43,689 bases of DNA from Desulfarculaceae bacterium. GTDB lineage: Bacteria > Desulfobacterota > Desulfarculia > Desulfarculales > Desulfarculaceae. Below are positions 20,180 through 31,621 of this stretch, in pieces. Location of the stretch: NCBI GenBank assembly GCA_027067385.1, contig JAMOVV010000080.1:1-43689 (forward strand), given 5' to 3'. A model generated the notes under the pieces. The model made no database searches and was not told where the DNA came from. It was given only the letters and a program-made list of their open reading frames with translations. Numbering within the stretch: the first letter of the stretch is position 1; each line of letters starts with the position of its first letter. Position numbers and translations under genes: made by a program.

Positions 20180-20201
20180 GCTCTTCTCCCGTAAATCAGT
20201 T

Positions 20202-20257
20202 AAGGAAAAGGTGGCGGGGGGCCGGCCCTGTGACCGGTGGCCCCGCCCCTTTTCCTT
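20202..20257 (-). terminator. Terminator after the seven-repeat protein gene
   Basis: AAGGAAAAG and GGCGGGG (from 20202) pair with CCCCGCC and CTTTTCCTT (to 20257), closing a GC-rich stem with AT-rich ends. It lies between the repeat-protein stop and fbp, fitting the end of the repeat-protein transcript. A promoter for fbp must overlap or follow it. Confidence 0.55.
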
Positions 20258-20313
20258 TTCTTAGTATCACCCGGGCATAGCTCCCGCAAGGACGGGTTGC
20301 CGCCCGGCGGCGT

Positions 20314-22407
20314 TTAGCGGGCGCAGTCCACGTAGAGGAACCCGCCGCAGCGTCCGTCGCAGCGGCGCCCGGAGTTAACCACCCAGGTGGCGTTGAAGTC
20401 GCGCTTGTACCAGTGCACCGCGTGGTGGTAGCCCTTCTTGCGGCAGAAGTCGTCGGCCGCCGGCTGCCCGCAGTTGGTGGCCCAGGTGAGGCACCAGTCC
20501 CAGGGCAGGCCGTTGTAGCGCGGGTTGTTGAAGCGCACTACGTTGCCCCCGCCGCCGGAACGGCAGGAGTTGAGGGCGTTAACCCGAGCCCGGTCCTCGC
20601 TGTTGGCCGCCGCGGCGCTCACCCCCCGGCACCAGTTGTAGTGGTTGTTCCAGTTATTTTGCCAGCGGTTGCCAGTGAACCCGCAGTTCCAACGCAGGTT
20701 GCGCCGGTTCTGGTTCACCGCCCGGTCGGCGTAGCGGCGGCAACGCTGGTTGGCGCTGCCCTGACACCGGTTCAGGGCGTTGACACGGGCTTGGTCTTCA
20801 TGCCGGGAGGTGGAGGCGCTCACCCGACGGCACCAGTTGTAGTGGCCGTTCCAGTTGTTGCTCCAGCGGTTGCCGGTGAACCCGCAGCCCCGCCGCAAGT
20901 TGGTACGGTTCTGGTTCACCGCCCGGTCGGCGTAGCGGCGGCAGCGCTGGTTCACCCCACCCTGGCAAGAATGGAGGGCGTTAACCCGGGCCTGGTCCTC
21001 GCGGTGGGCCACCGCGGCGCTCACCCGGCGGCACCAGTTGTAGTGACCGTTCCAGTTGTTGCTCCAGCGTCTGCCGGTGAACCCGCAGCCCCATTGCTGG
21101 TTGCGCCGGTTCTGGTTCACCGCCCGGTTGGCATAGTGGCGGCAGCGCTGGCTCACCCCACTCTGGCAAGAGTGGAGGGCGTTAACCCGGGCCCGATCCT
21201 CGCTGTTGGCCACCGCGGCGCTAACCCCACGGCACCAGTTGTAGTGGCCGTTCCAGTTGTTGCTCCAGCGTCTGCCGGTGAACCCGCAGCCCCGCCGCAA
21301 GTTGGTACGGTTCTGGTTCACCGCCCGGTCGGCGTAGCGGCGGCAACGCCGGTTGGCGCTGCCCCGGCACCGGTTTAAGGCGCTGACCCGGGCCCGGCTC
21401 TCGCTGTCGGCCACCGCGGCGCTAACCCCACGGCACCAGTTGTAGTGGCCGTTCCAGTTGTTGCTCCAGCGGCTGCCGGTGAACCCGCAGCCCCACTGCA
21501 AGTTGCGCCGGTTGTGGTTCACCGCTCGGTCGGCGTAGCGGCGGCAACGCCGGTTGGTGGTGCCCTGGCACCGGTTCAAGGCGTTGGTACGGGCCTGGCT
21601 CTCGCTGTTGGCCGCCGCGACGCTAACCCCACGGCACCAGTTGTAGTGACCGTTCCAGTTGTTGCTCCAGCGGCTGCCGGTGAACCCGCAGCCCCACTGC
21701 AGGTTACGCCGATTCTGGTCCACCGCCTGGTCGGCGTAGCGGCGGCAACGCTGGTTGGCGTTGCCCTGGCACCGGTTCAAGGCGTTGGTACGGGCCTGGC
21801 TCTCGCTGTTGGCCGCCGCGACGCTAACTCCAAGGCACCAGTTGTAATGGCCGTTCCAGTTGTTGCTCCAGCGGTTGCCGATGAACCCGCAGCCCCACTG
21901 CAGGTTACGCCGATTCTGGTCCACCGCCTGGTCGGCGTAGCGGCGGCAACGCCAGTTGGGGTTGGGAGGAGGCGAGCTGACCCGGAATATCTTCACCTGC
22001 AGTCCACCCTGGTTATCCCGGTAGTCGGTATCGACTATGCGGAAGAAGATAGGCTGGCCATTGGAGATAAAGTGGGCCGAGCGGTAGACATGGCCGGGAT
22101 TATAGGTCCCGGGACAGTAGTTGATCCCCAGGTTGTTTTGCAAAATGGTCATGGGTCGCTGGGCCCCCGGCTCGCCAAAGCTGTAACACGAGTCGTTTCT
22201 CAGGATACCCCCCATGATGCTTCGGCCGAAGATCAGGGAGCCTTCCACCTGGATGTAGTACTTGGCCCCGGCCTGCAGGTTGATCGGTCCCACCTGGCGG
22301 CCATCGCCCGGAATATAACCCTGCCAGTGCAGTTGTGCGGCGTGGGCCGTCAGGGCAAGGCCACACACCAACGATATGATAAAGAGAAGACCTATAGTTT
22401 TTTTCAT
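20314..22407 (-). CDS. Secreted protein with lectin-like N-terminus and seven Cys/Trp-rich repeats
   Basis: I do not recognise a named family for the whole protein (697 residues). Residues 1-23 form a signal peptide (MKKTIG, hydrophobic core, AHA). Residues 24-150 look like a beta-sandwich: VEGSLIFG, then FFRIVDTDYRDNQGGLQVKIF near the end, a layout that recalls calcium-dependent galactose-binding lectins of the PA-IL type, though this is a visual likeness only. Residues about 151-619 are seven copies of a 67-residue unit with four cysteines each (unit positions 4, 23, 41, 63) and conserved YA..AV, WGCGF, RW.NNWN.HYNWC. The last 78 residues form a different Cys-rich domain with WDWCLTWATNCG. 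The exported, basic, presumably disulfide-bonded protein may bind carbohydrate. GGAGGGGG is its ribosome-binding site. Confidence 0.85.
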   Translation of the reverse strand: MKKTIGLLFIISLVCGLALTAHAAQLHWQGYIPGDGRQVGPINLQAGAKYYIQVEGSLIFGRSIMGGILRNDSCYSFGEPGAQRPMTILQNNLGINYCPGTYNPGHVYRSAHFISNGQPIFFRIVDTDYRDNQGGLQVKIFRVSSPPPNPNWRCRRYADQAVDQNRRNLQWGCGFIGNRWSNNWNGHYNWCLGVSVAAANSESQARTNALNRCQGNANQRCRRYADQAVDQNRRNLQWGCGFTGSRWSNNWNGHYNWCRGVSVAAANSESQARTNALNRCQGTTNRRCRRYADRAVNHNRRNLQWGCGFTGSRWSNNWNGHYNWCRGVSAAVADSESRARVSALNRCRGSANRRCRRYADRAVNQNRTNLRRGCGFTGRRWSNNWNGHYNWCRGVSAAVANSEDRARVNALHSCQSGVSQRCRHYANRAVNQNRRNQQWGCGFTGRRWSNNWNGHYNWCRRVSAAVAHREDQARVNALHSCQGGVNQRCRRYADRAVNQNRTNLRRGCGFTGNRWSNNWNGHYNWCRRVSASTSRHEDQARVNALNRCQGSANQRCRRYADRAVNQNRRNLRWNCGFTGNRWQNNWNNHYNWCRGVSAAAANSEDRARVNALNSCRSGGGGNVVRFNNPRYNGLPWDWCLTWATNCGQPAADDFCRKKGYHHAVHWYKRDFNATWVVNSGRRCDGRCGGFLYVDCAR
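20551..21957 (-). repeat. Seven in-frame 201-bp tandem repeats
   Basis: The coding DNA is a head-to-tail array with a 201-bp period (67 codons), seven units long. Neighbouring units are very similar, for example those encoding NALNRCQG and the RRCRRYAD junction, suggesting recent amplification or gene conversion. Differences fall in a few positions: TG[SNR]RW, SES versus SED, and LQWGCG versus LRRGCG. Confidence 0.9.
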
Positions 22408-22796
22408 GGCTTCGCCCCCTCCCGGCTTATCTGGTCCATTCCTCGGTCATCTTGACGACGCCCCGGGCCCACAATTGCTTACACCAAGGTGCGATTTCTT
22501 GAGCACACGCCCGGGAAACCCGGTATTGGCAGCGCCGGGCCGGGCGGACTCCCCAAGACGGCATCGCACCCCACCACGGCGGCGGCCTGCCTGGCCCACC
22601 CAGCGCATGTCACCGTTACTTAATGGGTATAATTGATAAAATATCGAAAATGCCCCTACGGCCGGGACCTCCCCGCTCCCTTTGGGCACCTTCGTAAGTG
22701 CTATTGTCGCTTGAAGAGTGCTCCAGGGTCAAGGGGCAAGACGCCGGCCGGGGTTTGGTAGACCGGCCAGCACCGCAAGGGCGCCGGCCGGGGGTG
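22408..22796. other. Intergenic region between lysC and the seven-repeat protein gene
   Basis: This 389-bp stretch shows no gene. An AT-rich island at about 22619-22655, in otherwise GC-rich DNA, probably holds the promoter of the leftward repeat-protein gene, but no clean -35/-10 pair could be chosen. GC-rich inverted segments just after the lysC stop (about 22745-22795, GGCCGG blocks) could end lysC transcription. No cyclic-di-GMP riboswitch signature was found. Confidence 0.5.
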
Positions 22797-31310: not shown

Positions 31311-31333
31311 CCCGGCCATAGCCGCCGCAGGTG

Positions 31334-31360
31334 GGCCGGCCCTGAGGGGCCGGCCTTTTT
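31334..31360 (+). terminator. Cytochrome c3 terminator, copy 1
   Basis: GGCCGGCCC (31334-31342) and GGGCCGGCC (31347-31355) form a nine-base-pair stem followed by five T (31356-31360), a classic rho-independent terminator just after the cytochrome stop. Confidence 0.85.
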
Positions 31361-31446
31361 GTGGGGTGAAACCAGCCTCAAAAGTTAGCGCGGAGAGAGC
31401 CAGCCCTTTTGTGGGAAAAACAGCCGTCGCGGTTAACGTGCAGGTG

Positions 31447-31473
31447 GGCCGGTCCTAAGGGGCCGGCCTTTTT
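31447..31473 (+). terminator. Cytochrome c3 terminator, copy 2
   Basis: The second repeat unit carries GGCCGGTCC (31447-31455) and GGGCCGGCC (31460-31468), then five T (31469-31473). The single change turns a G-C pair into a G-U wobble in the RNA, so the fold is kept. Confidence 0.8.
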
Positions 31474-31621
31474 GTGGGGTGAAACCAGCCTCAAAAGTTA
31501 GCGCGGAGAGAGCCGGCCCTTTTGTGGGGAAAACAGCCGTCGCGGTTAACGTGCAGGTGGGCCGGTTTTAAGCAGGGGACGGCCTTGGGGACGTGTGACC
31601 ACGGCGGGTTGGCCCTAAGCC

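Follow-up and report, generated by a model that had tools for sequence, protein, structure and literature searches.

The minus-strand open reading frame (ORF) at 20314..22407 of the window, as we call the whole 43,689-nucleotide stretch of Desulfarculaceae DNA analysed here, encodes a 697-residue protein built on seven copies of a four-cysteine unit. This unit is an uncatalogued, widespread bacterial module that recurs in the company of an SRCR-like domain. Proteins of this general kind, exported and made of small cysteine-rich modules in tandem, are known, and the present example, from a bacterium related to the sulfate reducers, is likely to be exported as well, whether periplasmic, held at the surface or released.

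Direct reading of the sequence places a Shine-Dalgarno-like GGGAGGGGG (22415-22423) just 5' of the ATG of the repeat gene, followed by a putative Sec-type signal peptide at residues 1-23 (22339..22407, minus strand). The protein begins MKKTIGLLFIISLVCGLALTAHA-AQ, with cleavage expected after AHA. Behind the signal come an orphan N-terminal domain (approximately residues 24-147; 21967..22338, minus), the repeats and a C-terminal six-cysteine domain with an SRCR-like predicted fold (approximately residues 622-697; 20317..20544, minus). A reading made from the sequence only had described a secreted seven-repeat protein; its seven units stand, export is likely, and it had missed the N-terminal domain, the separate cysteine-rich C-terminal domain and a paralogue elsewhere in the genome.

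The translation, the unit starts and Tandem Repeats Finder (period 201 bp, 6.9 copies, 86% matches, score 1753) all confirm seven 67-residue units with four cysteines each, as that reading had counted them, although the assembly is a draft and the true number may differ from seven. The units start at residues 154, 221, 288, 355, 422, 489 and 556, a spacing of exactly 67, and are each recognised on the minus strand by the unit profile at 21766..21948 (unit 1, 76.9 bits), 21565..21747, 21364..21546, 21163..21345, 20962..21144, 20761..20943 (unit 6) and 20560..20742 (unit 7), the last two being those modelled with AlphaFold. A DNA pattern for C..YA..C..W..H..WC matches seven times in the window and never in 100 shuffles. 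Over their first 61 residues the units are 72-95% identical in protein and 78-97% in nucleotide sequence, units 1 and 2 differing at six codons, and the closest unit outside the repeat gene, among the units found, is at most 57% identical. This high identity within the gene, with no outside unit above 57%, indicates that the array arose by recent local duplication, in agreement with the amplification first suspected from the similarity of the repeats. The long plus-strand ORFs opposite the repeats are put down to the repeats themselves and the high G+C content.

Relatives of the unit are numerous. Of the 60 nearest genomes, counting that of the window, only three matched the full repeat protein. 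When genome contigs were searched with the whole protein nothing matched, because the peptide patterns used were too specific, and it was a hand-made degenerate DNA pattern that worked, with at least 116 matching stretches in the public species collection. Three pattern matches (L115, L123 and L132) were set aside as chance, having a stop codon inside the motif. An iterated profile gives 258 units in about 123 ORFs among the matches listed and the earlier loci. Alphaproteobacteria predominate among the hosts of the matches listed, joined by gamma-, beta- and deltaproteobacteria, Acidobacteriota and one record each under the labels Nitrospirae, Sulfurovum and Crocosphaera; as many host genomes are metagenome-assembled, these single odd hosts may be misbinned. 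The unit profile was positive in 34 of 150 sampled genomes of the order of Hyphomicrobium, in 4 of 349 genomes of its phylum (where fewer candidates were scored per genome) and in 2 of 395 genomes of the window's phylum, each tally counting the genome used as its centre. No unit was found in the viral, phage and plasmid collections searched.

Close to home, the window's own genome holds the unit-bearing paralogue, an apparently exported protein with three units (L002; contig 14, 1495-2217) that adjoins an HD-GYP-like ORF. Dethiosulfatarculus sandiegensis, of the same family, has a five-unit protein (L023 = L004) that shares tandem units and a signal-like N-terminus with the window protein but is larger, has a different N-terminal domain, lacks the SRCR-like domain and has fbp on a different contig. 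In a genome of the window's order, a locus cut by a contig end (L084 = L003) carries at least six units and a window-type C-terminal domain. This locus and two alphaproteobacterial MAGs (L111, L127) resemble the window in that the units lead directly into that domain, but they have one to six units, and their N-terminal regions are different or missing.

The number of units per ORF ranges from 1 to 8, with a single detected unit in 57 of 124 ORFs, and the linkers between units cluster at 6-13 residues across the family. By a crude rule, a hydrophobic signal- or TM-like segment lies ahead of the first unit in 104 of the 124 unit-bearing ORFs. PAN_4 stands beside the units in 13 of 79 relatives, and subtilase, trypsin, WSC, CAP, VWA, PASTA, YARHG, CsgG/FlgO/LpoB, beta/gamma-crystallin, fn3 and CARDB domains each accompany them in a single case; these companions are modules of extracytoplasmic binding proteins or of secreted enzymes. 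Alphaproteobacterial proteins from Hyphomicrobiales and elsewhere share the window's unit and spacing and are found by one profile with it, but some (L026, L029, L039, L109) have an N-terminal PAN-like region where the window protein has its own N- and C-terminal domains and no PAN match, and others (L031, L099) are short secreted proteins with a single unit against the window's seven. Such short proteins, of ~90-107 residues and with hardly anything beyond a signal-like segment and one unit, recur in Hyphomicrobiales (L031, L036, L038, L094, L095, L099, L126).

Ten residues define the unit, C1, Y4, A5, C20, W27, H34, C38, R53, L57 and C60, and all seven window units carry the whole set, scoring 73-78 bits each. 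Since the search pattern itself fixed some residues, conservation was read from 79 units outside it, where C1 is kept in 94%, Y4 and A5 in 77% each, C20 in 92%, W27 in 93%, H34 in 83%, C38 in 100%, R53 in 87%, L57 in 77% and C60 in 93%; R53, L57 and C60 are absent from the search pattern, yet conserved. All four cysteines are kept in 239 of the 258 units, and His34 is present in 94% of all units.

The sequence-only reading had recognised no family for the unit. This holds for the catalogues, as searches of Pfam, NCBIfam and PDB with the unit gave no model or relative and thus no characterised family, but not for the unit itself, which has hundreds of relatives. The published literature searched, which was largely open-access, gave no description of it. 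DUF4189 (PF13827) was considered and rejected, its 15.3 bits falling under the gathering cut-off of 25 (E 0.03, 29 residues); the similarity is weak and local, at the end of one window unit only, and the family is not among the 25 listed for the 79 relatives. The Pfam rows for InPase and Phi_1 are likewise weak and under cut-off. Pfam gave no PAN row for the window protein, PADLOC gave nothing, and neither Pfam nor NCBIfam matched the protein or its pieces to a carbohydrate-binding module or lectin. The phage family phrog_2293, of unknown function, matches the window protein at E 3.7e-9, but it does so for one of the 79 relatives and through no single stretch passing E 0.001, and tblastn found no credible match in 50,697 phage records; the similarity is probably compositional.

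Structure prediction, which had been proposed as a check on the unit, gives a confident three-helix model. For units 6-7 the mean pLDDT is 95 and the pTM 0.61, and the linker runs on into helix 1 of the following unit; for unit 7 with the C-terminal domain (87-row alignment) the mean pLDDT is 91 and that of the unit about 90-98, with helices at 2-17, 31-39 and 43-61. The models suggest that tandem units probably form a rod, the geometry between units being only moderately certain. With the tandem-unit model Foldseek found no PDB chain up to E 10, its matches among viral models were not significant, and VIA-align compared the model with seven chains, at a best Z of 3.6. A new fold is possible. 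Conservation is concentrated on a single side of each helix, with a strength that 0.47%, 5.8% and 0.14% of shuffles equalled for helices 1, 2 and 3, and the conserved Tyr, Ala, His, Trp, Arg, Leu and Cys share that face, which we read as a buried, packed core. Together with the retention of the four cysteines, the model upholds the earlier suggestion of a small, probably disulfide-stabilised cysteine-rich fold, and the unit is probably a small three-helix module pinned by disulfides.

Ten unit-bearing ORFs, that of the window among them, have the C-terminal domain, and six of these also supplied sequences to the search profile. The domain stands alone at L005, and a Legionella adelaidensis plasmid protein annotated as hypothetical (WP_058461638.1; L166:2644-3228) has two copies. 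At L019 and L062 units alternate with C-terminal-type domains, as if the pair had spread together; the domain matches there are weak. Searches of Pfam and PDB with the domain sequence gave nothing credible, and neither the domain nor seven proteins bearing it gave an SRCR row in Pfam at E up to 10. The AlphaFold block, with pLDDT mostly 85-94, tells more: in VIA-align the top nine rows all belong to SRCR domains (Z 4.1-6.1, 66-71 residues, rmsd 2.9-3.2 Å), led by CD5 domain III (Z 6.1, rmsd 3.1 over 71 residues) and including enteropeptidase, hepsin, MARCO, TMPRSS13 and M2BP, and unrelated chains over this domain reach Z 2.7 or less. All SRCR rows lie under the Z of 8 that VIA-align takes as safe, and Foldseek found no significant match for the model of unit 7 with the C-terminal domain. 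An SRCR domain has a beta sheet that cradles one helix, and six cysteines in a characteristic disulfide pattern. The predicted fold of the C-terminal domain resembles that of the SRCR domains of CD5, MARCO, hepsin and enteropeptidase, and its sequence has six cysteines; unlike them, it is bacterial and has no match to the Pfam SRCR profile. As the likeness appears in fold-level VIA-align rows with neither significance in Foldseek nor a sequence match, we prefer the name “SRCR-like” to “SRCR,” for a domain that resembles this family in predicted fold only.

The N-terminal domain, which may be reminiscent of a calcium-dependent, PA-IL-like beta-sandwich lectin, has DSCYSFG and DTDYRDNQG motifs (within window 21967-22338). 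For residues 24-147 Pfam gave nothing and PDB nothing credible; a row for a PA-IL-like lectin was absent from Pfam and, at E up to 10, from PDB. No relatives of the domain were found in 297 genomes of the window's phylum (its own genome apart), nor in 398 genomes of the phylum of Hyphomicrobium, plasmids or viral contigs. The G+C content of codons 1-149 of the repeat gene is 0.57, against 0.66 for the window and 0.65 for the whole gene.

The repeat gene stands alone between housekeeping genes, as had been recognised, with lysC upstream and fbp, tsaD and rsmA downstream on the same strand (names assigned by reading the translations). It splits lysC from fbp, which are adjacent and ~50-145 bp apart in three relatives (L170, D. 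sandiegensis; L173; L178); in the other relatives lysC was not within the flank compared. Both insertion here and loss elsewhere are possible, and gain is more likely than loss because the repeat gene is absent from nearly all sampled relatives. A strong hairpin between the repeat gene and fbp (20195..20275, minus strand; -42.1 kcal/mol, z -3.63) is the probable terminator and supports the earlier proposal that the gene has its own, though a simple consensus terminator scan did not include it among its entries; its A- and T-rich flanks suggest that it could work in both directions. An Rfam search upstream of the repeat gene gave no RNA. Elsewhere in the window, two 113-bp direct repeats (31327-31566), 96% identical and each containing a GGCCGGCC-type hairpin with a T-run behind it, lie just downstream of the end of an ORF that resembles a multihaem cytochrome with CxxCH motifs.

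The charge of the array is pronounced. The repeat region (window 20557-21948, 464 residues) contains 78 Arg, no Lys and 20 acidic residues, with a pI of 11.4, and the seven units proper hold 68 Arg and no Lys, for a net charge of +4 to +9 each; the neighbouring proteins use both Arg and Lys. The G+C content of 66% accounts in part for the Arg richness. L084, with units and C-terminal domain in the same order as in the window, reaches +11 per unit. Across the family the median is +2 per unit, the L086 and L060 arrays are neutral, and many members are neutral or acidic. A family so mildly basic, with some arrays neutral, cannot have polyanion binding as the shared function of its unit, but the cationic array of the window's branch probably binds polyanions.

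We lean, tentatively, toward an extracytoplasmic binding or adhesion array, acting here as a cationic, multivalent binder of polyanions; the class of ligand is the least certain part of this explanation. Once the signal peptide is cleaved off, every 67-residue unit would fold independently into three helices pinned by two disulfides, and the seven modules with their short linkers would form an elongated rod. Rich in Arg and poor in acidic residues, the rod would bind anionic polymers of the envelope or matrix (LPS, acidic exopolysaccharide, extracellular DNA or similar), with the SRCR-like C-terminal domain and the N-terminal domain contributing binding or anchoring. Recent local duplication would have supplied more copies and thereby higher avidity, and the variable surface of the unit would set specificity.

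Four other explanations were weighed against this one. The first, which follows the sequence-only reading, is a lectin or carbohydrate-binding array whose units bind sugar through conserved Trp, His and Tyr. It can point to the conservation of Trp27, His34, Trp37 and Tyr4 and to the WSC and PAN companions of some relatives, but we consider it unlikely, as the window protein matches no carbohydrate-binding family in Pfam or NCBIfam and the one-face conservation of each helix is the signature of a packed core. The exposed aromatic binding face proposed earlier thus finds no support; a conserved pocket is still compatible with the data, and the conserved polar Gln11, Asn15, His34, Glu49 and Arg53 could line it. 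We give about the same weight to a structural spacer or matrix of rigid, protease-resistant beads that have no ligand of their own and hold the terminal domains off the cell. Such a role would suit the variable unit number and surface, the fusion to many unrelated domains and the nearly continuous helix that joins tandem units in the AlphaFold model, but it leaves unexplained the many ORFs with one detected unit, some of them little more than a signal-like segment and that unit. A secreted cationic antagonist or enzyme inhibitor, its basic units directed at the envelopes of other cells or at extracellular enzymes, seems quite improbable: the strong positive charge of the window protein and the fusions to trypsin, subtilase and inhibitor-like domains in single relatives speak for it, but many family members are neutral or acidic, and among the housekeeping neighbours there is no candidate immunity gene. 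Binding of a metal or cofactor through the near-invariant His34 is very hard to credit; against it stand the lone conserved His of each unit and the four conserved cysteines, for which disulfides are the best account when a protein is exported.

Whatever its ligand, the binding array that we favour is made of a unit with a reach well beyond this genome. A wider proposal, which we hold to be rather doubtful, is that the unit represents a new protein superfamily, that its disulfide-pinned three-helix fold, not seen before, serves as a general extracytoplasmic recognition brick across several bacterial phyla, and that its recurrent C-terminal partner, though bacterial, is related to the SRCR pattern-recognition domain of animals. 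The SRCR domain is described as an ancient pattern-recognition domain (PMC3567963), and a bacterial SRCR-like fold, if confirmed, would bear on its origin. The confident model without a PDB match makes one unit, small as it is, attractive for experimental structure determination. The unit is absent from Pfam, NCBIfam and PDB although there are hundreds of copies in bacteria and it is common in the order of Hyphomicrobium, and giving it a name would bring annotation to a part that recurs in many secreted proteins now called “hypothetical.”
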